64,000 nt of DNA from Collimonas fungivorans Ter331. GTDB lineage: Bacteria > Pseudomonadota > Gammaproteobacteria > Burkholderiales > Burkholderiaceae_D. The stretch spans positions 3,058,542 to 3,122,541 of the forward strand of contig NC_015856.1 of NCBI RefSeq assembly GCF_000221045.1. The letters run 5' to 3'. Positions within the stretch are counted from its first letter, which is position 1, and each line of letters opens with the position of its first letter. Below the pieces are notes generated by a model. That model made no database searches and had not been told where the DNA came from. It was given only the letters and a program-made list of their open reading frames with translations. Below, one piece after another: positions 7,918 to 21,027 of this stretch. The translations under genes were made by a program, and so were the position numbers.

Positions 7918-7968
7918 CTGTTGGTGGGGCGTGTGTGATTCGAACACACGACCTACGGATTAAGAGTC
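7918..7968. repeat. left attachment repeat (tRNA-Lys 3' fragment)
   Basis: 51-bp copy identical to 13201-13251. It contains only the anticodon-loop-to-CCA part of tRNA-Lys, so it is not a functional tRNA. After position 7968 the sequence departs from the tRNA. Confidence 0.9.
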
Positions 7969-8213: not shown

Positions 8214-9008
8214 TCAAGCTAAATCACTATCTACAATGTTAACGGTACTCATGCCTTCTTGTGCCTGCTTGTACTTTACAGGATAGGGCATGTTTTGAAT
8301 AATGTATCGCTTTACCCGCTCCTCCATTCGGCATCCAAAAATGATCGCTTCAACAAATTCCGGCTGATAATAAACTTCCTTCCTAAGTTTTCCTGCCGGA
8401 ATTCTGCTATTCTCATCATTCGCTAGATAACGGTACTCATCCTCATAAGACCACTCTTTTAGTTTTACTCTCAAAGCGGCCACTACCTTCTTGCCGAGTT
8501 CGTTTTCATCCACAGTACTGAGCTGAAGGCGAAACAGGTCTATCATCTCAAGCTTGGCAATGTTATCGGAGTAGGTTACCGGAAGAGCTTGAATGTACTG
8601 AGATCTAAATTCAATGCAGAATCCTCTATGCGAATCTGCGTAATGTGCCCACATCAAGTTGCTGGTAGCTTTCGCAGATAGTGAATATACGGCGTAGCTG
8701 TCGATAAGCTCGTTGAACATTTGTTCAAGATCATTGAGATGTCCGTGACCTGCCTGTGTAAATTTACCACTCTTGGTCAGCCCGTCAAATATGTGCTTTT
8801 GAGCCTTGTGTATGTGGTTTCGCAAAGCCTTAAACTGTTGTGGCGTCGGCTTAGCCAAGTCTATTTTTGAGTCAAATAGGTCGTTGAAATTCTTTCGACC
8901 AGAGAAATTTCCATAGCTCTTAAATAGAGCTTGAATTGCGTGATCATCCGCAATCTCGTCAAATTTCTTCGAGATTGAACGGTATTTGTAAAAGAATTCT
9001 GGATACAT
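8214..9008 (-). CDS. DUF2971 domain protein (putative island defence gene)
   Basis: 264-residue cytoplasmic protein. The DUF2971 signatures are visible: NLMWAHYADSHRGFCIEF in the middle and KEWSYEDEYRYL later, followed by IIFGCRMEE. The biochemical role of the family is not established to my knowledge; it is frequent in variable and defence-rich islands. I chose the ATG at 9008 because AAGGA lies just upstream; upstream in-frame codons to 9098 read into the IS21 end and are not original. The gene is AT-rich. An IS21-type end begins 29 bases upstream of the ATG, so its native promoter has probably been lost or replaced. Confidence 0.8.
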   Translation of the reverse strand: MYPEFFYKYRSISKKFDEIADDHAIQALFKSYGNFSGRKNFNDLFDSKIDLAKPTPQQFKALRNHIHKAQKHIFDGLTKSGKFTQAGHGHLNDLEQMFNELIDSYAVYSLSAKATSNLMWAHYADSHRGFCIEFRSQYIQALPVTYSDNIAKLEMIDLFRLQLSTVDENELGKKVVAALRVKLKEWSYEDEYRYLANDENSRIPAGKLRKEVYYQPEFVEAIIFGCRMEERVKRYIIQNMPYPVKYKQAQEGMSTVNIVDSDLA

Positions 9009-9036
9009 GTTTTCCTTAGCACGGTCCTGTATCGGA

Positions 9037-9505
9037 TGTTGATTTGCGTCTAAAACTGACCCACTTAGCTGGATAATTTGCATCGAAAATTGACCCACGT
9101 ATAGAACACAATCCTACTCAATATAGTGAGTGGGAGATTGGAGTGATCGACGTGGCATTATTAGGCATTATTCGACGCTGGCACCTTCGTGACCAGGTCT
9201 CCCTGAGGGAGATCGCCAGGCGCTTGGGAATCTCCAGAAACACCGTCAGACGTTATCTGCGCTCTGAGGTCATAGAGCCGGCTTATAGGGATCGACGCAC
9301 TCCCAGTGCTCTTGATCAGTACGCCTTCAAACTTTCATCCTGGCTTAAAACCGAAGCGGCCAAATCTCGAAAGCAGCGCCGCAGCTTGAAACAGATCCAT
9401 GCTGATCTATGTGCGCTAGGTTTTGAGGGATCGTACGACCGGGTTGCTGCCTTTGCGCGGCAGTGGCGAGTGGATCAACAGGATAGGGTCAATTTCGCAA
9501 GCAAA
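9037..9505 (+). mobile_element. IS21-family remnant (left end plus 5' part of istA)
   Basis: Starts near 9037 with an end of IS21 type, with repeated TGACCCA motifs (about 9057-9063 and 9084-9090) before the transposase gene. Similarity to an IstA stops near 9505 and no istB or right end follows, so the element is a fragment and cannot move by itself. Confidence 0.7.
9143..9505 (+). pseudogene. istA: truncated IS21-family transposase IstA (N-terminal 121 residues)
   Basis: GTG start with GGGAGA upstream. The N terminus is typical IstA: a helix-turn-helix (VSLREIARRLGISRNTVRRYLRS) followed by the linker to SYDRVAAFARQWRVDQQDRVNFASKGT, which in intact IstA leads to the DDE catalytic core. Here the similarity breaks off after SKGT, and the frame runs another 16 unrelated residues to a stop at 9556. 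The DDE domain and partner IstB are missing. Confidence 0.75.
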
Positions 9506-9842
9506 GGCACAGGCTTGGGTCCAGTCTGGGCACCAATCTGCCTGGCAGCTCTGTGAGTCAGTCGATGTTCTTGGACATTCTAATGCCTTATCCGAGCGAA
9601 CACTATCCTTCGAGGAGTTCAGCGGCACAGCCGTGGCCCTTGGTTGGATGCCTTCCCGAGAGAAGACCGTGACGGATGATGTGGCGCCTCTCAATGTATG
9701 GCTATATTGCTTGAGTAGCAATGCCAGGTAAAGTCTAGGCAAATACACAAGAGCCAAGTCGATGGTTTACACAATTCTGGGATAAGACATTAGCTAACTA
9801 GTGCAACAGCTCACTGAGATCGTAATAATGGAAGCACAGAAT
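9506..9842. other. 337-bp spacer of unknown origin between IS21 remnant and cold-shock gene
   Basis: Open frames cross this stretch on both strands (9423-9731 plus, 9416-9757 minus) but none has a Shine-Dalgarno, family motifs or a natural start. It is probably decayed sequence brought in or broken by the IS21 event. Confidence 0.4.
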
Positions 9843-10046
9843 CTAACTGACGATAACAACGTTTCTAGCCCGATGAGCTTTTTCTGGATCAATATCAAAG
9901 GTCACGCTCGTACCGGCTGCCACGGCCCCTCCTTCGTACTTTGATTGGATGTCACTCCAATGAAAGAAAACATCCTTCCCTTTAGGGCGGGTAATAAATC
10001 CAAAGCCTTTTAGAATATCGAAATTTTTTACACGTCCCTCATTCAT
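9843..10046 (-). CDS. cold-shock-domain protein, retron-associated
   Basis: 67-residue CspA-like single-strand nucleic-acid-binding protein. RNP1 is visible as KGFGFI (residues 13-18) and RNP2 as DVFFHWSDI; the remainder fits a five-stranded OB fold. Its ATG lies inside the 3' end of the reverse transcriptase gene (8-base overlap, ATGAATGA), indicating translational coupling. The sequence departs from housekeeping CspA (HWSDI instead of HFSAI; added YEGGAV). From memory, cold-shock proteins are the accessory gene of one published retron type (type V in the Mestre scheme); that assignment needs a database check. Likely role: binding msDNA or the RT-RNA complex, or acting as effector. Confidence 0.88.
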   Translation of the reverse strand: MNEGRVKNFDILKGFGFITRPKGKDVFFHWSDIQSKYEGGAVAAGTSVTFDIDPEKAHRARNVVIVS

Positions 10047-11217
10047 GGAAACTCGCTAATAAACATGTTGGTTTCAGCGGCTTCAAATCTTTCTCTAGGC
10101 TAATCGCCAAGGTTCGATTTGTGCGACTCAATATACTAATTTTGTGTTTGAACTTGTAGTATTTACGAGTGTAGCCTTCTTCGGAAAATTTACTTGGGTG
10201 TAGTTTTGAATACCCGATAAATTTCCTGCAGAGCCACCCTATTTTCTTTGCTTTTTTATTGTCATATGTTGGCAAAATTTGACGCAAATGTTGACGATGA
10301 ATTTCTGCCTTTTTTGTATTTAATCGACTATAGAGAGCGACCAATCCAGAAGCTTTATTAAACGATTTATGATACTCATGATCTGTCGTACTAACCTCCG
10401 CCTTGCTCTTAAGCTCGTACACCATCTGCCCGATTAATTTTACTTTTTCTTTTGGCAGTTTTATCATTTTATCTTCGACTACCAGCCCAGTTACAACAGT
10501 TTTCTTCCCAATCACTGTAGTGTTTGTAACCCCATATTTTCGCTGACTAATCTTCAGTTTTTTTTCACCCAACATCTTACTAATTTGCTCATATATAAAG
10601 CGTCTTTCTTCGTTTTTTATTATTGTTTTTGAACTTACCGTTATATCGTCAACGAGTCGTGAATAGGTAAAACCCATTGCATTCAAAGTTTTTACTATCT
10701 TATGTTCGCAGTCATAAAAAATTAGATTTGCCACATACGAACTAGTCGGTGCTCCTTGCGGAAGCCCATCCTGAAGAGTCATCAGCGAAACGAGCATTTC
10801 AGCAACTTCGTTTGGCAAATTAAATAAGAACTTAAGAACTTTTTTTACAAATTGAGGGCGTACGGATGGAAAGAAAGATTCGACATCAAAAGCCATAACC
10901 TCTCGTGCTTGGCTATGATATTGCGCGTTCCGAACGAAATCGCGAGGATTTATTTCATCCCTGATAGATCCAAATAGATAACTCGGAAACGAACACTTAG
11001 AAAAAATTCGCCGGACAATGCGGCGTTGAACAATTTTTAGTTCTTTTACAGGGTCAGAAATCGTTCTGAATCCATCTGTCTTTTTTGGAATTTTCGATAT
11101 GGAGTAAAAATCATCTGGTTTAGATGCTACAAGCGTGAGGAAATTCTCTGTAACATCAAGCATTTTTGCTAATGCAGCAACGCTTCCAATAGAAGAATTA
11201 GAATATGCAATTTTCAT
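10039..11217 (-). CDS. retron-type reverse transcriptase
   Basis: 392-residue RT, full length for a retron enzyme. In order: N-terminal LAKMLDVTENFL helix; PKKTDGFRTISDP (RT1 region); retron-specific NAxxH as NAQYH at 97-101; catalytic motif A FDVESFFPSV (Asp111); LPQGAPTSSYVANL (152-165); motif C SRLVDDITVSS with Asp190 and Asp191; and the retron VTG signature at 242-244, thought to help bind the cognate RNA. The first position of the YxDD box is Leu, an unusual change. It would make multicopy single-stranded DNA from the RNA encoded upstream. The ATG at 11217 lacks a clear Shine-Dalgarno. AT-rich codon use sets it apart from the chromosome. Confidence 0.93.
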   Translation of the reverse strand: MKIAYSNSSIGSVAALAKMLDVTENFLTLVASKPDDFYSISKIPKKTDGFRTISDPVKELKIVQRRIVRRIFSKCSFPSYLFGSIRDEINPRDFVRNAQYHSQAREVMAFDVESFFPSVRPQFVKKVLKFLFNLPNEVAEMLVSLMTLQDGLPQGAPTSSYVANLIFYDCEHKIVKTLNAMGFTYSRLVDDITVSSKTIIKNEERRFIYEQISKMLGEKKLKISQRKYGVTNTTVIGKKTVVTGLVVEDKMIKLPKEKVKLIGQMVYELKSKAEVSTTDHEYHKSFNKASGLVALYSRLNTKKAEIHRQHLRQILPTYDNKKAKKIGWLCRKFIGYSKLHPSKFSEEGYTRKYYKFKHKISILSRTNRTLAISLEKDLKPLKPTCLLASFHE

Positions 11218-11236
11218 ATGTAAAGGTGACGAAGTG

Positions 11237-11440
11237 TTACTTAGTAAAGTGCGTAATTAGGTAGTGCAAAACTTCCGCAATTAACGCCCTCGTTACGTAA
11301 CCAAAAAATAGTTTGAAGAGGCTTTCGCCTGCCATTTTTTTTAGCCCCAACCAGGCCTGTCTCGCAAATTGTTTCGCTTCCGACGAAACATTGCGGTTAA
11401 TACTTGTATGTGCGAGTTTAATGATGATTAACAGATTCAT
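11237..11440 (-). CDS. possible small protein upstream of the RT (uncertain)
   Basis: 67 codons with an ATG at 11440 and AAGGA eight bases upstream. The product has a hydrophobic start (MNLLIIIKLA) and an amphipathic, Phe/Leu-rich C-terminal half (ESLFKLFFGYVTRALIAEVLHYLI). I do not recognise it. It overlaps the candidate retron RNA (11341-11544), so either it is a fortuitous frame inside a structured RNA or the RNA and a small ORF share sequence. The good Shine-Dalgarno is the main argument for it; the competing RNA explains most of the same bases. Confidence 0.3.
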   Translation of the reverse strand: MNLLIIIKLAHTSINRNVSSEAKQFARQAWLGLKKMAGESLFKLFFGYVTRALIAEVLHYLITHFTK

Positions 11441-11544
11441 AGGAATATTCCTTATAAGGGGTTATGACTACCTAAAAAAGATAGCCCGACTAGCCTTAAT
11501 GAATCTATTTTGACCATTGGTGAGGTGTAACCTGGTTGGGTTAA
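11341..11544 (-). ncRNA. candidate retron msr-msd RNA
   Basis: Upstream of the RT, a perfect 10-bp inverted repeat (CCTGGTTGGG at 11531-11540, complement at 11346-11355; plus a further TTA/TAA pairing) encloses 175 nt, the geometry expected of retron a1/a2. Read 5' to 3' on the minus strand the enclosed RNA has: an 8-bp stem 11499-11506 with 11433-11440 (AGATTCAT/ATGAATCT) that contains a 7-bp hairpin with a U-rich loop; a small TTAAT/ATTAA hairpin; then a strong hairpin 11363-11395 (CGCAA-TGTTTCG with CGAAACA-AT-TTGCG), optionally closed by CTCGCA/TGCGAG, next to a2. The 3' hairpin is my candidate msd. a2 ends about 130 nt before the RT start. Boundaries and the branching G are not determined. 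Confidence 0.6.
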
Positions 11545-12020
11545 CTCCGCCACTTTTATCGTCTTACTGCTGTTGCTATAAGTTCACCGGCATTTTGGTC
11601 CACGCGGCGCGCGCCTTTAGCGCGGCCTGCGGGCCAACGTCCCGGTAGAGATATCAAGTGATATCGTCGAAAGCCAAATGGATTCCGACTTGGACACCCA
11701 GTCAATCTCAACACATAAAGTATGCTTGTTAAAGAGCGAAAACACGACAGCAAGGCATATCGCCCTGTTTCTTGATGGTATCGTACAAAAAAAACATTGT
11801 CAAACTGTACTAGATTTTCTCGAATGCTCACCTAACAAGGAAGACCGCCCGATCTAAAAGTAATGAGAAAGAGCGGTACAGTACGCTTCGCTATCCTTGG
11901 CGCGACCATCCTGCTCCAGTCTTTTCCCGCCGAAATTGGCCGCACTGCAACGGGCAGCCCACCCGCCCCTGAGCGGCCATATATTTATCGACGGTATCTT
12001 GCGATATCCGGCCTCGCATA
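11545..12020. other. region between retron RNA and integrase, no supported gene
   Basis: A minus-strand open frame at 11556-11831 lacks a Shine-Dalgarno and looks like chance. The stretch probably holds the retron promoter. On the minus strand 11724-11737 reads GCTCTTTAACAAGC, close to the boxA antitermination sequence of rRNA operons. Confidence 0.4.
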
Positions 12021-13093
12021 TCACCCCAATCTCTCCAAAAGACTTTCCGGTTTGAGGTGAGTGTACCTCTTGAGCATCTGCATGCTTTTATGCCCGGTGA
12101 TACTGGCCACCTCCATTGGATGAAATCCCTTTTCGAATAGCCGCGAGGCAGCTTCGTGACGTAGATCGTGCCAGCGCAGGTCTTCGATTTTCACTTTGGC
12201 CAGCGCGCGTTTCCAGATGCAAATGATTGCGTTCGCCGTAGTGGCCAGCACAAGTCCGGCGCTTGGTTGCACAATTTCGCCTTTGTCATTCCGAGGGCAG
12301 ATAGACTGCAGCACCTCGATAGCACGCCTAGATAAGGGCAATGCCGCCGGCACCCCTTTATTCGAAATTTCCACGGTGCTGGCCGGGAACCGTATCATCC
12401 GCGCGGAAAGATTCACCCACTCCCACCTAACTTTAAACAGCATTCCTTGCCGCAGGCTTGTTTCTATTGCCAGATCAAAAGCGCACGCGGCATACGGGTT
12501 TTCACTTGCTTTTAATCGACCAAGAATGAGATCGTACTCCCCTGTTTCCAGGCGGCGATTGCGCGCACGACTGCCAGCCGGTTTACGAATATTTTTCAGT
12601 GGATTGGCAAGATTTTCCATTCCCCATTCTTTACGCGCAATCTCATATAGATGACTGATAAGCTGGAGTTCCAGGCGAATTGTATTTTCTGCTCGACCTG
12701 CTTCGCGCCTTTTATCTCTGTAAACTGCGAAATCTGCACCTTTCAGATTTGCTAGGGTGCGGTAGCAAAGTCATTTTGCAACCATCGGTTGATGCGACAG
12801 GTTTCTTGATATGGATGTCGCTTGGCTGGGACGATATCTCGGTTGTAGCGCTCCAACGCCTCGCGCAGAGTGGTACGTTCCGCTTCAGCCCTGTCAACGT
12901 ATAGGCCTGAATCCATTTCCGACTCTACGCGGCGCGCCCACTGCTGGGCCTGCTTTTGCGTATCGAATGTGCGATACGTAGGTTTATATCCTTTGCGACG
13001 AACTTCCGCCCGCCAATATGCACCGCGTTCCTTGATGTATGCCATTCCAGACTTCCCAATTGTTGATAAAGCGCTTGGTCTGGATTTTTTCAT
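12021..13093 (-). pseudogene. tyrosine-type integrase, split by a frameshift
   Basis: The N-terminal part (13093 to 12752, or from the ATG at 13045 with GGGAAG upstream) is the Arm-type AYIKERGAYWRAEVRRKGYKPTYRTF segment plus core-binding domain. It hits a stop right after NDFATAP. One frame over, protein continues without a gap as LANLKGADFAVYRDKRREAGRAENT and on into the catalytic domain starting around 12620: Arg box in TSLRQGMLFKVRW, HDLRHEAASRLF, and GHKSMQMLKRYTHL with the nucleophilic Tyr. A single missing base in the C run near 12755-12757 (minus strand) restores one continuous gene. It abuts the intact tRNA-Lys, so it is the island integrase. Confidence 0.88.
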
Positions 13094-13200: not shown

Positions 13201-13251
13201 CTGTTGGTGGGGCGTGTGTGATTCGAACACACGACCTACGGATTAAGAGTC
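13201..13251. repeat. right attachment repeat (3' part of intact tRNA-Lys)
   Basis: 51 bases identical to 7918-7968; spans the anticodon loop to CCA of the tRNA plus four bases beyond it. Marks the integrase-proximal end of the island. Confidence 0.9.
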
Positions 13252-13280
13252 CGCTGCTCTACCAGCTGAGCTAACGCCCC
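13205..13280 (-). tRNA. tRNA-Lys (anticodon CTT)
   Basis: 76 nt folding as a complete cloverleaf: acceptor GGGGCGT pairing with ACGCCCC, D-arm GCTCAGCTGGTAGAGC, anticodon stem GCGGA/TCCGT around loop CTCTTAA (anticodon CTT), T-arm with TTCGAAT, and an encoded CCA end. Its 3' half is the attachment site of the island to its left. Confidence 0.97.
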
Positions 13281-13394: not shown

Positions 13395-13868
13395 TCATGC
13401 CGTGACCAGTCCCACCCAGTGCAAGGTTGATTCGTCCACCGCGACCTGGGTGCGCCCGGCCGGACGGGCCGCCTTGGCAGCCGCTATCGCAGACCTGTAG
13501 AGCGTCTTCTGGGCTTTTCTCAGCAAGCGCTGTTCAATGCGCCGGGTATACAAATCGCTGTATTCGACAATTTTCCCCAGCGTCTGCGCCAACTCCTTGT
13601 CGTCGGCCTGGCTTTGCGCCAGCTGGCGCCAGAAATCGCATTCGGTCCAGCGCCGGAAACGCATGTAGACCGTGCTTGAACTGCCGAACCGCTCGGGCAG
13701 GCAGCGCCACGAACCTTTGTTGAGCACTATCCACAGCACGGCCTCGATGAACAGACGGTTGTTTTTTGCATTGGCGCCGGGATCGCTCTGTTTCCCGGTC
13801 AGGAGCGGCTCAAGCTTTTGCCATTGCCCGTCCCGAAGTTTGATTTGCTGCTTATGCACCAGGCTCAT
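13395..13868 (-). CDS. IS5-like transposase N-terminal (DUF4096) domain protein with unrelated tail
   Basis: 157 residues. Residues about 10-95 match the N-terminal domain of IS5/IS427-group transposases (WQKLEPLLTGKQSDPGANAKNNRLFIEAVLWIVLNKGSWRCLPERFGSSSTVYMRFRRW, signature residues only). Instead of a DDE core the protein ends in a charged helical tail (KELAQTLGKIVEYSDLYTRRIEQ) and RTQVAVDESTLHWVGLV. A strong Shine-Dalgarno (GGAGGAGG) precedes the ATG, which argues for expression rather than decay. It lies just upstream of tRNA-Lys. It may be a domesticated DNA-binding remnant or a degenerate insertion sequence; I see no terminal repeats. Confidence 0.65.
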   Translation of the reverse strand: MSLVHKQQIKLRDGQWQKLEPLLTGKQSDPGANAKNNRLFIEAVLWIVLNKGSWRCLPERFGSSSTVYMRFRRWTECDFWRQLAQSQADDKELAQTLGKIVEYSDLYTRRIEQRLLRKAQKTLYRSAIAAAKAARPAGRTQVAVDESTLHWVGLVTA

Positions 13869-14045: not shown

Positions 14046-14669
14046 TTAAAGCGGATCAGGCCAGGCGCGCATCGCTTGCGCACCGATCGCCAGCAGCTTC
14101 TCGCGCCCGGCGTTGTCGCGCGCCTGGGTCGACATGCCGTGGATGACTGTCACGAAAAAACTCGCCATCGCGGCGGTATCGGTGTCGGCAGCCAATTCGC
14201 CCTCGCGCACGCCGCGGTCCAGCCGGTCCTTGATGCCGGCCTCCATCTGCCCGCGGTAATCCGCCAGTACTTCCTGCACATGCGAAGAGGCGGCGGTGCA
14301 ATTGGTGGCTGAAGTCACCACCATGCAACCGGGCGGCTGGTTGGGATCGGTTTGCGAGATGGCGATTACTTCGAGGTAGCTGCGGATGCTTTCCTTAGCC
14401 GTCAGCGGCTCGGCCACGATCGACTCGAAAAAACATGGCTTCTTTGCAAGATAATATTCCACTGCTTCCAGAAACAGGCGTTCCTTGTCGCCGAAGGCCG
14501 TATACAGGCTGGGCGGCGTGATTCCCATGGCGCAGGTGAGGTCGTTGAGCGACGTCGCCTCATATCCGTAACGCCAAAAAACCAGCATCGCGCGTTCCAG
14601 CGCAAGTTCCCTATCGAACGATAAAGGACGGCCGGCCTTCTTGCGCGGCTTGTCTTGTGTCATTTCCAT
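14046..14669 (-). CDS. TetR/AcrR-family repressor of the RND efflux operon
   Basis: 207 residues with an N-terminal TetR helix-turn-helix (ALERAMLVFWRYGYEATSLNDLTCAMGITPPSLYTAFGDKERLFLEAV, key parts) and a C-terminal ligand domain containing PPGCMVVTSA. It is divergent from the RND adaptor gene, the standard layout for an efflux repressor. Its own start overlaps one of two near-identical sequence repeats (see 14669-14746), so it is probably autoregulated. Confidence 0.9.
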   Translation of the reverse strand: MEMTQDKPRKKAGRPLSFDRELALERAMLVFWRYGYEATSLNDLTCAMGITPPSLYTAFGDKERLFLEAVEYYLAKKPCFFESIVAEPLTAKESIRSYLEVIAISQTDPNQPPGCMVVTSATNCTAASSHVQEVLADYRGQMEAGIKDRLDRGVREGELAADTDTAAMASFFVTVIHGMSTQARDNAGREKLLAIGAQAMRAWPDPL

Positions 14670-14746: not shown

Positions 14747-15088
14747 GAATAGAAATTCTGCAGATGCCGGATGTGGCTAAATGGAAACATCAGTGTCTCA
14801 CAGAATTAAATTTGATGTTTTCCGAGCGCGTTTTTTTGCTTTCAGGTAAGGGAAAAACCGGCACATTTGGAGGATCAGACAAGAAGCGTCCAGTAAGCGG
14901 CTATCGGCTGACAGCCAGTCAGCCATACATTGCTAATCATGATTTGAAGCAATCCAAGCCAGTCAAGAACGCCGATGTCGATCTCCAGGCCAAGCTGCAA
15001 TCCCTTTCATAGGCCCAGCGCTCCCGCGATTGTTTCCGATTACGCAGTTATCCATTTCCGTTTCCACACATATATCCAGGGGTCTCAC
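14747..15088 (+). other. long 5' leader of the RND operon
   Basis: About 340 bases between the promoter and the adaptor ATG. An 82-codon frame (14764-15012) starts with ATG but lacks a Shine-Dalgarno and family features; it could be a leader peptide but I would not annotate it as a gene. Confidence 0.4.
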
Positions 15089-16300
15089 ATGCAAACTTCG
15101 ACACCATTATTTTCTCGCAAAGCGATTGCGATTGCGGTTGGCATCCTCATCCTCGCCGCCGCCGGCACTTTCACCCTGACCAGCCGCCAGGCCAAGGCGG
15201 TCGCCGCGCCGCCTCCTGCCGCATCGGTCTCGGTGGCCGCCGCCCTGGAGAAATCGGTTACCGAATGGGATGATTTTTCGGGACGGGTGGAAGCTATCGA
15301 ACGGGTTGAAATCCGCCCGCGCGTCTCCGGCACCATCGACGCCGTGCATTTCCAGGAAGGCCAGCTGGTCAAGAAAGGCGACCTGCTGTTCACTATCGAT
15401 CCCCGCCCTTATCAAGCTGAACTGGCGCGCGCAGTGGCGACCCAGGCCGGCGCCCAGGCCGGACTGGCGCTGGCCAAAACCGAGCTGGCCCGCACCAGCC
15501 GCCTGATCGAAGAACATGCAGTGGCCCAGCGTGAGCTGGACCAGCGCAACAATGCCCTGCTGGAAGCCGACGCCAGCCTCAAGGCGGCGGACGCAGCGGT
15601 GCAGACCGCGCGCCTGAACCTGCAATACACCTCGATTGCAGCGCCGGTCAGCGGCCGTGTCTCGCGCGCTGAAATCACGGTCGGCAACCTGGTCGGCGCC
15701 GGCGTCGCTTCGCCGGCCTTGACCACCGTGGTGTCGGTATCGCCGGTGTACATCAATTTTGAAGTGGACGAGCAAACCTATATCCGCTACGCCGCCAACG
15801 GCGCGGTCGGTAATTCCGGCGTCAAGAACCTGCCGGTGTCGATAGGCCTGGCCAGTGAAGAAGGTTATCCGCACCAAGGCCAGATCAAGGCTTTCGACAA
15901 CCGTCTCGATACTGCCTCCGGCACGATGCGGGTACGCGCGGTATTCGACAATTCGAACGGCACCCTGACTCCCGGCATGTACGCCCGCGTGCGCACCGGC
16001 GGCGCAGCGGCAGAGACCGCCGTGCTGATTGACGACAAGGCGGTCGGCACCGACCAGGACAAGAAATACGTCATGGTGCTGGGCGCCGACAACAAGGTTA
16101 CCTATCGCACGGTCAAGCTGGGTCCGATCGTCGATGGCTTGCGGATCGTGCGCTCCGGCCTCAAGAAAGATGAGCGGATCGTCGTCAACGGCCTGCAGCG
16201 GATCCGGCCGAACGACCTGGTCACGCCAGTGACGGTGGCCATGGACGGTGAACAGCTCGCGCCAGCGAAGAATGCACTGGCCGTGGCTGCAGCTAAATAA
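15089..16300 (+). CDS. RND efflux periplasmic adaptor (membrane fusion protein)
   Basis: 403 residues. An N-terminal signal/anchor (AIAIAVGILILAAAGTFTLTS) is followed by the MFP fold: lipoyl half-motifs (EIRPRVSGTIDAVHFQEGQLVKKGDLLFTID and IAAPVSGRVSRAEITVGNLV in outline), a long alpha-hairpin rich in Ala/Glu/Leu between them, and beta-barrel and membrane-proximal domains. It bridges the inner-membrane pump and the outer-membrane channel. Start at 15089 has AGGGG upstream. There is no lipobox Cys, unlike AcrA, so it is anchored by its N-terminal helix or free. First gene of a three-gene operon under the divergent TetR repressor. Confidence 0.93.
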   Translation: MQTSTPLFSRKAIAIAVGILILAAAGTFTLTSRQAKAVAAPPPAASVSVAAALEKSVTEWDDFSGRVEAIERVEIRPRVSGTIDAVHFQEGQLVKKGDLLFTIDPRPYQAELARAVATQAGAQAGLALAKTELARTSRLIEEHAVAQRELDQRNNALLEADASLKAADAAVQTARLNLQYTSIAAPVSGRVSRAEITVGNLVGAGVASPALTTVVSVSPVYINFEVDEQTYIRYAANGAVGNSGVKNLPVSIGLASEEGYPHQGQIKAFDNRLDTASGTMRVRAVFDNSNGTLTPGMYARVRTGGAAAETAVLIDDKAVGTDQDKKYVMVLGADNKVTYRTVKLGPIVDGLRIVRSGLKKDERIVVNGLQRIRPNDLVTPVTVAMDGEQLAPAKNALAVAAAK

Positions 16301-16357
16301 CAAGGACGCCGACGACTCACCTCGCAACGACGCCAAAACACAGCAGAGCCCAACACC

Positions 16358-19300
16358 ATGAATATTTCTAAATTCTTTATCGACCGCCCGATCTTTGCGG
16401 GCGTGTTATCTGCAATCATCCTGATCGGCGGCCTGATTTCCATGCTCAGCCTGCCGATCTCCGAGTACCCGGAAGTGATTCCGCCATCCGTCATCGTCAA
16501 GGCGCAGTATCCGGGCGCCAATCCGCAAACCATCGCGGAAACCGTCGCCACGCCGATCGAAGAACAAATCAACGGCGTCGAGGGCATGCTCTACATGTCT
16601 TCGCAAGCGACTTCCGACGGCCTGATGACGCTGACCATCACCTTCAAGCTCGGCACCTCGCCCGACCTCGCGCAGCAACTGGTGCAGAACCGCGTCAACC
16701 AGGCGTTGCCGCGCTTGCCGGACGTGGTACAGCGGCTGGGCGTGACCACCGTCAAAAGCTCGCCCAACCTGACCATGGTGGTGCACTTGCTGTCGCCTAA
16801 CGACCGCTATGACATGGCCTACCTGCGCAACTACGCGGTGCTGAACGTCAAGGACCGGCTGGCGCGCCTGCCCGGCATCGGTTCGGTCCAGCTGTTCGGT
16901 TCCGGCGATTATTCGATGCGGGTCTGGCTCGATCCGCGCAAGGTGGCTGAACGCGGCCTGGCTGCCACCGATGTGGTGAACGCCATCCGCGAACAGAACG
17001 TCAATGTCGCCGCCGGCGTGATCGGCGCTTCGCCTGCCGTTCCCGGCGTCAATTATCAGATCTCGGTGAACGCCCGCGGCCGCCTGGCCAATGAGGAAGA
17101 GTTCGGCAACATCGTGATCCGCACCTCGTCCGACGGCGTGGTGACCTACCTGAAAGACGTGGCGCGCATCGAACTGGGCGCCAGCGAATACGCCTTGCGC
17201 TCGCTGCTGGACAACAAGCAGGCGGTGGCGATTCCAATCTTCCAGGCGCCCGGCTCCAACGCGCTGGAAATCTCCGACAACGTGCGCGCCACCATGGCCG
17301 AGCTGAAGAAAGACATGCCGGAAGGCGTCGACTACAAGATCGTCTACGATCCGACCCAGTTCGTCCGCTCTTCGATCGAAGCCGTGGTGCATACCTTGCT
17401 GGAAGCGATCCTGCTGGTGGTGATCGTGGTGATCATCTTCCTGCAAACCTGGCGCGCCTCGATCATCCCTTTGCTGGCGGTGCCGGTCTCGGTCATCGGT
17501 ACTTTTGCCGTGATGATGGGCCTGGGCTTTTCGATCAATGCGCTGAGCCTGTTCGGGCTGGTGCTGGCGATCGGGATCGTGGTCGATGACGCCATCGTGG
17601 TGGTGGAAAACGTCGAGCGCAATATCGAAAACGGCTTGTCCGCCAAGGAAGCCACCTATAAAGCAATGCGCGAAGTATCGGGACCGATCGTGGCGATCGC
17701 CCTGACCCTGTGTGCGGTGTTCGTGCCTTTGGCTTTCGTCAGCGGCCTGACCGGCGAATTCTTCAAGCAGTTCGCCCTGACCATTGCTATCTCTACCGTG
17801 ATCTCGGCCTTCAACTCGCTGACTCTGTCGCCGGCCTTGGCCGCCCTGCTGCTAAAAGGCCATGGCGCCAAGAAGGACGGCTTCCAGCGTGCCATCGACC
17901 GTGTCTTCGGCGGCTTCTTCTCGGTGTTCAACAAGGTATTCCATCGCGGCTCGACCGCGTACGGCGAAGGCGTGACCGGCATCCTGAAACGCAAGACAGC
18001 CGCGCTCGGCGTGTATGCCGTACTGATCGGCCTGACCATGCTGTTGTTCCACACCGTGCCGAACGGCTTCATCCCGGCGCAAGACAAGCAGTACCTGGTC
18101 GGTTTTGCCCAGCTGCCTGACGCTGCTTCGCTCGACCGTACCGAGGACGTGATGCGCAAGATGTCCGAAATCGCACTGAAGCAGCCTGGCGTGGAATCGG
18201 CCGTGGCCTTCCCTGGCCTGTCGATCAACGGTTTCGTCAACAGCCCGAACTCCGGCATCGTATTCACCACGCTGAAGCCGTTCGACGAACGCCGCAGCGC
18301 CGACCAAAGCGGCATAGCGATTGCGCAGCAGCTTAACCAGAAATTCTCGGCCATCCAGGGCGCCTTCATTGCCGTGTTCCCGCCGCCGCCGGTACAGGGG
18401 CTGGGCACCATCGGCGGCTTCAAGCTGCAGATCGAGGACCGTGGCGCGCTGGGCAACCAGGCCTTGAACGATGCCTTGCAAGCGTTCATGGCAAAAGCGC
18501 ACCAGGCGCCGGAACTGGCGGGCATGTTCTCCAGCTTCCAGATCAACGTGCCGCAACTGTACGCCGATGTCGACCGTGTCCGCGCGCAGCAGCTGGGGGT
18601 GTCTATCCCTTCAGTGTTCGACACCTTGCAGATCTACCTGGGTTCCTTGTACGTGAACGACTTCAACAAGTTCGGCCGCACCTTCCAGGTCCGGGTCCAG
18701 GCTGATGCGCCGTTCCGCGCCCATGCCGAAGATATCGGCTTGCTGAAAGCGCGCAACGACAAGGGCGAAATGGTGCCGCTGTCTTCGCTGCTGAAGATGA
18801 CGCAAAGCTACGGCCCCGATCAGGCAGTGCGCTACAACGCCTTCCCCTCGGCCGACGTCAACGGCGGTCCGGCGCCAGGCTACAGCACCGGCCAGGCCCA
18901 GGCCGTGGTGGAACGCATCGCGGCCGAGACCCTGCCGCGCGGCATCAGCTACGAATGGACCGAAATCACTTATCAGGACAAGATCGCCGGCAATACGCTG
19001 TTCATCATCTTGCCGCTGTCGATCCTGCTGGTGTTCTTCGTGCTCGCAGCGCAATACGAGAGCCTGACCTTGCCGCTGGCGGTATTGCTGATCGTGCCGA
19101 TGGGGATCCTGTCGGCGATTGCCGGCGTCTGGCTGACCCGTGGCGACAACAATATCTTCACCCAGATCAGCTTGATCGTACTGGTTGGGCTGGCGTGCAA
19201 GAACGCCATCCTGATCGTCGAGTTCGCCCACGAGCTGGAGCTGCAAGGCCGCTCCATCTACGCTGCGGCGATCGAAGCTGCCCGCCTGCGTTTGCGGCCT

Positions 19301-19585
19301 ATCCTGATGACCTCGATCGCCTTCATCGCCGGCGTCGTGCCGCTGATCCTGTCGAGCGGCGCCGGCGCCGAAATGCGCCATGCAATGGGCGTGGCGGTGT
19401 TCTCGGGAATGATTGGGGTGACGGCTTTCGGCCTGTTCCTGACGCCGATCTTTTATGTACTGTTGCGCACGCTGGCATCGCGCTGGACCAGCGGCAAGCA
19501 TGAAACCGAAGCCTATACCGGCCCGGCGCCACATGGCAATGCCGTTCCAGTAATTGCCAGCACCGCGCAAATTGAAGGAATCTGA
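16358..19585 (+). CDS. RND multidrug efflux permease (HAE1, AcrB/MexB type)
   Basis: 1075 residues, the normal size. Starts MNISKFFIDRPIFAGVLSAIIL; the two large periplasmic loops and twelve membrane helices are evident. TM4 carries the proton-relay segment GIVVDDAIVVVENVER with the Asp-Asp pair conserved in the family, and the C half has the AILIVEFAHELELQG helix and LRPILMTSIAFIAGVVPL. It works as a trimer expelling drugs or solvents using the proton gradient. No strong Shine-Dalgarno, so expression may depend on the upstream adaptor gene 57 bases away. Spectrum of substrates cannot be predicted. Confidence 0.95.
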   Translation: MNISKFFIDRPIFAGVLSAIILIGGLISMLSLPISEYPEVIPPSVIVKAQYPGANPQTIAETVATPIEEQINGVEGMLYMSSQATSDGLMTLTITFKLGTSPDLAQQLVQNRVNQALPRLPDVVQRLGVTTVKSSPNLTMVVHLLSPNDRYDMAYLRNYAVLNVKDRLARLPGIGSVQLFGSGDYSMRVWLDPRKVAERGLAATDVVNAIREQNVNVAAGVIGASPAVPGVNYQISVNARGRLANEEEFGNIVIRTSSDGVVTYLKDVARIELGASEYALRSLLDNKQAVAIPIFQAPGSNALEISDNVRATMAELKKDMPEGVDYKIVYDPTQFVRSSIEAVVHTLLEAILLVVIVVIIFLQTWRASIIPLLAVPVSVIGTFAVMMGLGFSINALSLFGLVLAIGIVVDDAIVVVENVERNIENGLSAKEATYKAMREVSGPIVAIALTLCAVFVPLAFVSGLTGEFFKQFALTIAISTVISAFNSLTLSPALAALLLKGHGAKKDGFQRAIDRVFGGFFSVFNKVFHRGSTAYGEGVTGILKRKTAALGVYAVLIGLTMLLFHTVPNGFIPAQDKQYLVGFAQLPDAASLDRTEDVMRKMSEIALKQPGVESAVAFPGLSINGFVNSPNSGIVFTTLKPFDERRSADQSGIAIAQQLNQKFSAIQGAFIAVFPPPPVQGLGTIGGFKLQIEDRGALGNQALNDALQAFMAKAHQAPELAGMFSSFQINVPQLYADVDRVRAQQLGVSIPSVFDTLQIYLGSLYVNDFNKFGRTFQVRVQADAPFRAHAEDIGLLKARNDKGEMVPLSSLLKMTQSYGPDQAVRYNAFPSADVNGGPAPGYSTGQAQAVVERIAAETLPRGISYEWTEITYQDKIAGNTLFIILPLSILLVFFVLAAQYESLTLPLAVLLIVPMGILSAIAGVWLTRGDNNIFTQISLIVLVGLACKNAILIVEFAHELELQGRSIYAAAIEAARLRLRPILMTSIAFIAGVVPLILSSGAGAEMRHAMGVAVFSGMIGVTAFGLFLTPIFYVLLRTLASRWTSGKHETEAYTGPAPHGNAVPVIASTAQIEGI

Positions 19586-19587
19586 AC

Positions 19588-21027
19588 ATGAAAAGCTTTA
19601 ACCTGAAACTGACTGCAATGATGGCGGCGCTGGTGCTGGCCGGCTGCTCCACCACCAAACCGCCGGAACAGGTCGCGGTCGACACGCCAGCCCAGTATCG
19701 CGAAGCGGCCGCGCTGGACGGCAGCTGGAAAGTAGCCCAGCCGGCCGACGCCGCCGACCGCGGCGCCTGGTGGTCGGTGTTCGGCGACGCCCAGCTCAGC
19801 AAGCTGGTCACCGATGCCACTCAGTCCAGCCCGACCCTGGTCATGGCCTTGGCGCGCGTCAAGGAAGCGCGCGCCACCGCCGGTCTGGCCGATGCCGACC
19901 GCGCCTTCCAGCTTGGCGCCGCCTTCGGCCCTACCCGCCAGGGCACGGCCAGCGCCACCTCCACCCAATGGCAGGCGCAGCTAGGCGCCTCCTATGAGGT
20001 CGACCTGTTCGGCCGTCTGTCGGACAGCAGCCGCGCCGCCCGCCTCGATGCCGAAGGCCAGGAAGCGGCGTATCGCTCGGTGCTGCTGGCGCTGCAGGCT
20101 GACGTCGCCCAGCAGTATTTCGCGATCCGTTCGCTCGATTCGGAACTCGACGTGCTGCAGCAGACCATCAAGCTGCGCCAGGAAAACCTGCGCCTGGTGC
20201 AGCATCGCTACGATGCCGGCGACACCAGCGAGCTGGATGTGGCGCAAGCCCAGACCGAGCTGTCGGTGACCCAGGCCGAACAGGAAGGCGTCAGCCGCAG
20301 CCGCGCCCAGCGCGACCACGCGCTGGCGATCCTGCTGGGCAAGGCGCCGGCGCAGTTCACCCTGGCCAGCGCGCCGCTGCAGCCGGTGACGGTCAGCGTG
20401 CCGCCCGGCCTGCCATCCGATCTGCTGGAACGGCGCCCGGACATCGCCCAGGCGCAGCGCCAGCTGGCCGCCGCCAGCGCCCGCATCGGCGTCGCCAAGG
20501 CCGGCTTTTTCCCGAGCCTGGTGCTGACCGCTTCCGGCGGCTTCGCCTCGGACGCGCTGCACAACCTGTTCCAGTGGTCCAGCCGTAGCTGGATGCTGGG
20601 ACCGCTGGTAGGCAGCGTGCTGAATCTGCCTCTGCTCGATGGCGGCCGCAACAAGGCCAACCTGGCCAAGGCCGACGCCAACTATGAATCGGTGGTGGCG
20701 AACTACCGCCAGCAGGTGCTGGTCGGCTTTCAGGACGTGGAAGACAACCTGAGTGCGATGCGTACGCTGGATAACCAGATCCGTTTCCAGGAAGACGCCG
20801 TGAAATCGGCACAACTGGCCGCGCGCCTGGCCGATTCGCGCTACAAGAACGGTTCGACCAGCTATTTCGAAGTGATCGATGCGCAACGTTCGAGTCTTTC
20901 CGCGCAACGCGCGAAGAGCCAGAGCGTCGGCCAGCGGGCGGTGGCCTCGGTCGGCCTGATCCGGGCGCTGGGCGGCGGCTGGGATCAGCCTGCGGCAAAC
21001 GCTGCCCCTCTGGCGCTGGCCAGGTAA
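19588..21027 (+). CDS. RND efflux outer-membrane factor, NodT/OprM-type lipoprotein
   Basis: 479 residues. Type II signal peptide with lipobox LAGC (MMAALVLAGCS, lipidated Cys near residue 19). Two repeated OEP domains with long helices form the trimeric TolC-like tunnel (e.g. RQENLRLVQHRYDAGDTSELDVAQAQTEL and ARLADSRYKNGSTSYFEVIDAQRSSLS in outline). Only two bases separate it from the pump stop, with AAGGA upstream, so it is translated from the same message. Completes the tripartite pump and is followed by a strong terminator. Confidence 0.94.
   Translation: MKSFNLKLTAMMAALVLAGCSTTKPPEQVAVDTPAQYREAAALDGSWKVAQPADAADRGAWWSVFGDAQLSKLVTDATQSSPTLVMALARVKEARATAGLADADRAFQLGAAFGPTRQGTASATSTQWQAQLGASYEVDLFGRLSDSSRAARLDAEGQEAAYRSVLLALQADVAQQYFAIRSLDSELDVLQQTIKLRQENLRLVQHRYDAGDTSELDVAQAQTELSVTQAEQEGVSRSRAQRDHALAILLGKAPAQFTLASAPLQPVTVSVPPGLPSDLLERRPDIAQAQRQLAAASARIGVAKAGFFPSLVLTASGGFASDALHNLFQWSSRSWMLGPLVGSVLNLPLLDGGRNKANLAKADANYESVVANYRQQVLVGFQDVEDNLSAMRTLDNQIRFQEDAVKSAQLAARLADSRYKNGSTSYFEVIDAQRSSLSAQRAKSQSVGQRAVASVGLIRALGGGWDQPAANAAPLALAR

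Follow-up and report, generated by a model that had tools for sequence, protein, structure and literature searches.

The locus described here lies on the minus strand of a 64,000-nucleotide stretch of the Collimonas fungivorans Ter331 chromosome (NC_015856.1, positions 3,058,542 to 3,122,541; hereafter the window) and, judged by profiles, motifs and phylogeny, is almost certainly a type V retron. It comprises a gene for a retron reverse transcriptase (RT) of 392 amino acids (10039..11217), a gene for a cold-shock-domain (CSD) protein of 67 amino acids (9843..10046), which overlaps the RT gene by 8 bases (10039-10046), and a long leader RNA. In addition, the region earlier read as structured RNA contains a small open reading frame (ORF) of 67 codons (11237..11440, minus strand), beginning with an ATG at 11440 preceded by AAGGAA. 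Its conservation, the selection acting on it and profile searches point to a real protein, and its product is a candidate effector.

The RT is matched best by the PADLOC profile RT_V (1.1e-90), followed by RT_IV (6.3e-72), and by Pfam RVT_1 (1.5e-19). Its NAxxH motif reads NAQYH at residues 97-101 and its VTG motif lies at 242-244; in an alignment of eight type V RTs, residues N97, H101, T243 and G244 are invariant, together with D111, D190 and D191, which we take to be the usual catalytic aspartates. The top PADLOC profile of the CSD protein is CSD_V (2.1e-21; Pfam CSD 4.2e-13), and the protein retains ordinary KGFGFI and VFFHW stretches, presumably those of nucleic-acid-binding cold-shock proteins. 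Against NCBIfam NF038236 (retron Se72 family effector) it scores 61.9 bits (E 4.1e-17), under the cut-off of 82, and it is therefore not assigned to that equivalog; likewise, the RT scores 160.2 bits against NF038233 (retron St85 family RT), under the curated 235. In a quick RT tree of 81 rows, whose root we placed on a long branch, all 48 type V rows cluster, the sole row labelled 'other' among them being L092, and the window RT pairs with that of L027 (49% identity; Shimodaira-Hasegawa-like approximate likelihood ratio support 100). In the PDB the RT finds its top matches among further retron RTs, Ec86 and Ec67 for example, and none of the PDB matches is named type V or Se72. Taken together, these data bear out the preliminary description as to the placement and overlap of the RT and CSD genes, the two RT motifs and the reading of a complete type V retron with a CSD partner; the profile search and the tree, which it had proposed as checks, give RT_V as the best profile and place the RT among those of CSD retrons. 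The window locus is an ordinary, diverged type V retron.

Relatives of the RT were collected from whole genomes (21 loci, three of them from the window's own genome and not retrons of the type V kind), plasmid and phage records (5), viral contigs (21) and genome contigs (the best 80 of 103, found with an alignment of eight RTs; a scan of genome contigs with a single protein as query found no relative). The RT profile scores form two groups, at least 412 and at most 311, and the type V limit, a score above 400, was chosen after this gap had been seen. This gave 57 loci, including L117 (score 282, truncated), which was grouped with type V because a CSD gene follows. Removal of duplicates (L029, L046, L052, L110, and L001, which is the window locus) and of L117, whose upstream part is missing, left 51 type V loci. 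The other 66 RT loci, of which 64 have 400 bases upstream, served as controls; two of them, L092 and L099, proved on later inspection to resemble type V. A CSD gene follows the RT in 49 of the 51 type V loci; in L107 the contig stops 3 bases past the RT, and in L051 (Cupriavidus necator), where small ORF and RT are present, the 1.5 kb beyond the RT yielded no CSD.

The leaders of 9 of 9 type V loci first drew attention to an ORF of comparable length at one and the same place. Over the whole set, 51/51 type V loci carry an ATG-initiated ORF, 55 codons or longer, whose end falls 12-75 bases before the RT start, against 1.75 expected from base-shuffled leaders; among controls, 6/64 carry one, against 2.7 expected. 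With L092 and L099 moved to type V, the counts become 53/53 and 4/62, the controls left with such an ORF being L068, L095, L096 and L121. The preliminary description had listed three parts, namely RNA, RT and CSD; this is one too few, since the conserved small ORF lies between leader RNA and RT in every type V locus examined. As for single loci, in L092 (Accumulibacter, type V) the RT and CSD genes are each broken over frames and the small ORF is open. A 66-amino-acid ORF stands 243 to 42 bases before the RT of L068 (Pectobacterium fontis; RT score 296, outside type V), from which a gene similar to the small ORF may exist in a sister type.

Selection was assessed on ten chosen pairs of small ORFs, which differ by 190 amino-acid changes, against 236 when the substitutions are placed randomly in the same codons (P <1/2000). 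When pairs are taken singly, 5 of the 10 reach P 0.03 or less. The deficit persists after removal of the strongest pair (163 versus 194.7 changes, P <1/4000) and in the seven pairs of at least 63% identity (106 versus 132.4, P <1/4000). These counts show purifying selection on the small ORF. Moreover, profiles built from members less than 45% identical rank the small ORF first among the 26-101 ORFs of each locus in 43 of 52 loci, the misses including L007, L024, L060, L061 and L072.

Annotation pipelines skip the small ORF, as would be expected if it were an untranslated by-product of the RNA, in line with the 'alternative msr' suggested for Se72. Specifically, in PEC240 (a RefSeq Escherichia coli chromosome) RT and CSD are annotated and the small ORF is not. 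Similarly, the Se72-type small gene matches 29 plasmid records, 28 without an annotated feature and 1 with a hypothetical protein, as given by an incomplete gene table; these records form a count of their own, made without record-by-record comparison with the RT list. The small gene of the window, used as query, gave no match where the Se72-type query gave these 29 records, and in its own genome it found only itself. Among 5,426 complete E. coli genomes, 31 contain the Se72-type cassette, and in 19 of these at least 80% of the query is covered. Against the by-product explanation stand the 51 open frames out of 51, selection at the protein level and the cross-recognition by profiles, which make it very improbable. 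We conclude that the small ORF very probably encodes a real protein. Type V retrons themselves are known; the small gene seems to have gone unrecognised as protein-coding until now. In the literature searched it is nowhere treated as a conserved protein beyond a remark on an ORF in one review, and the primary Se72, retron classification and census papers, which lay outside this search, may describe it.

The RNA in which the small ORF is embedded is highly structured. The leader 11218-11560 (minus strand) folds at -106 kcal/mol (z -7.2), with 0 of 100 dinucleotide shuffles as good, and a longer leader, 11218-11775, gives z -6.3. No Rfam family was found in the leader at either threshold. The structured RNA of the preliminary description is thus upheld as a fold beyond chance, but the interval proposed, ending at 11544, was too short, and the RNA would reach about 220 bases further 5'. 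Its start probably lies near 11768, because of a promoter-like site at 11803-11775 and a boxA-like site at 11738-11726. The former (11775..11803, minus strand) consists of the hexamers TTGACA-17-TACCAT, with 10/12 matches, just 5' of the boxA; promoter-like sites number 2 in the region versus 5.3 in shuffles, a count not above expectation, and the site is weak alone.

The boxA-like antitermination site, CGCTCTTTAACAA (11726..11738, minus strand), includes at 11727-11737 an exact match to GYTCTTTAANA, the consensus given in PMC5725501. The exact consensus occurs in 17 of the 51 type V leaders, against 0.12 expected, and in 2/63 controls, one of which is L099; with at most one mismatch, TGCTCTTTAA is found in 29 leaders, versus 1.75 in shuffles, and in 4/64 controls. 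The 12-mer of the window, GCTCTTTAACAA, has a single occurrence in the 5.19-Mb genome, in the retron leader; in the three 16S leaders of the same genome, GTTCTTTAACAA stands some 210 bases upstream of the 16S start motif. The boxA-like site of the window is a putative NusB-S10 site. Our literature search found no paper joining retron, boxA and antitermination.

Downstream of boxA lies a 5' hairpin element (11642..11668, minus strand) made up of CGA, a 6-bp stem GATATC/GATATC and CTACCGG, and recognised by its motif and covarying inner arms. The hairpin-preceded motif TCnn[GT]ACC[CG]G, located 330-600 bases before the RT, is present in 43/51 type V loci and in 1/62 controls. Of 16 distinct inner-arm combinations, 14 pair at all three tested positions, compared with 12.5% for arms of different loci. 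This covariation was anchored on the nearest CGA; an earlier, wrong anchoring had given 4/24, with 9% for deranged arms, and a 25-sequence hairpin alignment was left out of the pair counts, as stems of different length were misaligned in it.

Further downstream, all on the minus strand, the window carries a candidate direct repeat, with copy 1, CAGTAAGAC, at 11561..11569 and copy 2, CATTAAGGC, at 11493..11501 (imperfect, 7/9 identical, spacing 68). It is not significant alone, and its place and spacing are comparable to those of the relatives' repeats: in 28/51 loci (6.2 expected) the left arm of a long-range stem lies between exact direct repeats 8 or more bases long, 26 of these loci having a spacing of 59-72, and the repeat sequence differs between loci but stays alike within a locus. 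This stem pairs regions at about -340 and about -30 and encloses the small ORF; in the window its left, a1-like arm is at 11544..11553 and its right, a2-like arm at 11226..11235, between small ORF and RT. A strict stem score of at least 9 is reached in 33/51 loci versus 3.8 in shuffles, in 14.9% of pairings between arms of different loci, and in 5/64 controls versus 4.95. The stem is weaker in the window than group-wide (score 8.6, own-shuffle P 0.07). The strict score, computed over a fixed interval, missed arms seen by eye in the Se72-like L022, L024 and L025, and with a permissive score type V could not be told apart from shuffles or controls (41.3 versus 38.8; 41.4 versus 39.8). Two inner elements complete the RNA: a perfect 10-bp inverted repeat (I2), with its left arm at 11531..11540 and its right arm inside the small ORF at 11346..11355, and a hairpin with a U-rich loop at 11466..11486 in the RNA fold.

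This arrangement brings forward the chief rival to an effector role, namely that the small ORF is a regulatory leader peptide, which sets the RNA fold or couples to RT translation, with the CSD protein as effector. The enclosure of the small ORF by the long-range stem, the distance of 13-60 bases from its stop to the RT start in the loci studied, and the name 'retron Se72 family effector protein' given to the CSD protein by NCBIfam and RefSeq would all agree with such a role. However, a bare leader peptide needs neither the constraint on amino acids nor the hydrophobic C-terminal half kept across remote relatives, and structure in the RNA is no stronger at the ORF start than elsewhere; on balance, we hold a leader peptide to be unlikely, if a serious contender.

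Most of the small proteins have a hydrophobic stretch. Specifically, in 50 of 51 cases the centre of the most hydrophobic 19 residues falls in the C-terminal half. The mean Kyte-Doolittle value of these residues is 1.58, whereas shuffled proteins give 1.13 and translations of the two other frames 1.08 and 0.66; 45/51 reach a threshold of 1.2. For the C-terminal 36 residues a helical moment of 0.43 was obtained, compared with 0.35 for shuffles. An AlphaFold2 model built from 40 sequences predicts a helix at 16-66, best defined C-terminally (blocks of predicted local distance difference test, pLDDT, 79-89). The protein could not be placed convincingly in any Pfam, PHROGs, PADLOC or NCBIfam family: searches of 48 small proteins against these four collections gave, at E<=0.05, only scattered one-member matches, the best at 0.0021, and the best PDB match was at 0.29.

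Such a protein could also be a helper or an antitoxin, that is, a subunit of the RT-RNA complex or a restrainer of a toxic CSD protein. The small ORF always adjoins the RT and is found in L051 as well, where no CSD was detected, both of which would suit a helper; its fast evolution and hydrophobic C-terminal half would better fit a membrane-active effector, and a CSD protein whose KGFGFI and VFFHW stretches are ordinary does not have to be toxic. We regard the helper or antitoxin role as rather improbable. The retention of small ORF and RT in L051 would also suit an effector role for the small protein.

The retron resides on an island of 5,283 bp bounded by a perfect 51-nt repeat, with the left attachment (att) copy at 7918..7968 and the right copy at 13201..13251, within the tRNA-Lys (CTT) gene that is the integration site (13205..13280, minus strand). 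In 4 of 5 related genomes checked, sequence like the left flank of the left repeat directly adjoins a complete tRNA-Lys gene; the tRNA-integrated island reported in the preliminary description is hence confirmed. A tyrosine integrase gene (12021..13093, minus strand; Pfam Phage_integrase 4e-22 on 12021-12620) is divided between two frames, 12021-12770 and 12752-13093, so that the island may no longer move by itself. On the same island, a DUF2971 gene (8214-9098, minus strand) matches the PADLOC defence candidate PDC-S31 (3.8e-40), and a truncated helix-turn-helix (HTH) protein with Pfam HTH matches (9143-9556, plus strand) resembles what we take to be the start of an IS21-type transposase. Outside it, inspection by eye revealed a transposase-like ORF just past the tRNA (13395-13868, minus strand) and ORFs resembling an efflux pump operon (14975-21027, plus strand; membrane fusion, resistance-nodulation-division and outer-membrane proteins), adjoined by a TetR-like ORF (14046-14669).

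We propose, tentatively, a four-part model. Leader RNA, small protein, RT and CSD would be read as one unit on the minus strand, from about 11768 to 9843. Nus factors loading at boxA would let transcription continue through the structured leader, and the RT would copy a leader segment, probably roughly the stretch between the direct repeats, into multicopy single-stranded DNA (msDNA). RT, msDNA and the CSD protein, a presumed single-strand nucleic acid binder in this setting, would form a guard complex restraining the small protein, a putative toxic effector acting through its hydrophobic C-terminal helix, probably at the membrane. A phage that disturbs the host DNA-processing machinery would make the guard fail, and the small protein would then stop growth. 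According to PMC10732053 (2023), retron Se72 arrests growth through mechanisms as yet unknown, which agrees with the statement of the preliminary description that no mechanism had been demonstrated for this type; that source and PMC12409349 report activation of Se72 by RecBCD inhibition. What the loci themselves show is the set of four parts, with the order and conservation of these, and the RNA elements; we infer the effector role, the membrane action and the release. That the small protein is an effector restrained by RT, msDNA and CSD falls a little short of an even chance in our judgement, and the full four-part scheme, with leader RNA, small effector, RT and CSD guard, we place equally just below the midpoint between doubt and belief. 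The widest form of the proposal we judge somewhat less likely still: that type V retrons in general are four-part systems whose weapon is an unannotated hydrophobic small protein encoded between the arms of the retron RNA and kept silent by RT, msDNA and CSD until phage disturbance, one transcript serving both as template of the guard DNA and as toxin message.

Several observations tell against this proposal. In the selection test, 5 of the 10 pairs lack significant constraint when taken alone. The relatives' profile ranks the window's own small ORF 1 of 41 but with an E of 12, and the kinship of this ORF is supported by its position and by a single BLASTP match, to L027 (E 7e-6, for that comparison alone). 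The hydrophobic signal is only in part one of position: 44% of the composition-keeping shuffles also reach a Kyte-Doolittle value of 1.2, and 6 of the 51 real proteins stay below it. The confidence of the AlphaFold2 prediction is modest (mean pLDDT 69.8; predicted template-modelling score 0.30), and boxA, even with one mismatch allowed, is absent from 22/51 leaders. Finally, RNA structure does not particularly bury the small ORF's start (mean percentile 0.47), and a simple translation-switch model, in which the RNA fold would hide this start, is therefore unsupported.

What is new here is an added component and an RNA layout. The conserved extra protein would offer a concrete candidate for the missing effector of Se72, for which the CSD protein is at present listed as effector, and cassettes cloned with their native leader already include the small gene. 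Retron defence profiles consisting of RT and CSD would describe type V incompletely, and a boxA heading the retron RNA would connect the expression of retrons with the machinery of rRNA antitermination.

Among known systems, type I toxin-antitoxin systems encode small hydrophobic toxins in structured RNA. The window resembles them in that a small protein with a hydrophobic stretch is encoded in a highly structured RNA; unlike in those systems, this RNA also belongs to an RT and is accompanied by a CSD gene. Retron Ec48 is a type IV retron with an annotated effector of two transmembrane segments and no CSD. RT_IV is the second-best PADLOC profile of the window RT, whose best profile is a different one, and Ec48 and Se72 are both reported, in PMC10732053 and PMC12409349, to be triggered by RecBCD inhibition.

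Retron Se72 (Retron-Sen1), of type V, is found on small plasmids of Salmonella and E. coli, whereas the window locus sits on a chromosomal island. The Se72-family plasmid L024 has the same order of small ORF, RT and CSD and the same leader elements as the window, and its CSD protein is annotated 'retron Se72 family effector protein'. The RTs of Se72 and the window are 31-32% identical over 97% of the window RT, and plasmid-borne type V RTs in general are only 31-34% identical to it; the window also differs in its CSD score (61.9 bits against a cut-off of 82) and in its imperfect direct repeat. In L024 a 9-base direct repeat recurs at spacing 62; across both copies this makes about 71-73 bases, near the 72 in the name Se72, if that number has the meaning we assume for it. 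Se72 is reported, in PMC6868368, to lack a branching guanosine and 2'-5' link. The closest relative found is the type V retron of Xenophilus sp. AP218F (L027), which belongs to another genus and whose small protein is about 31-34% identical to that of the window; it shares with the window an RT of 49% identity, an alignable small protein, the boxA and the 5' hairpin.
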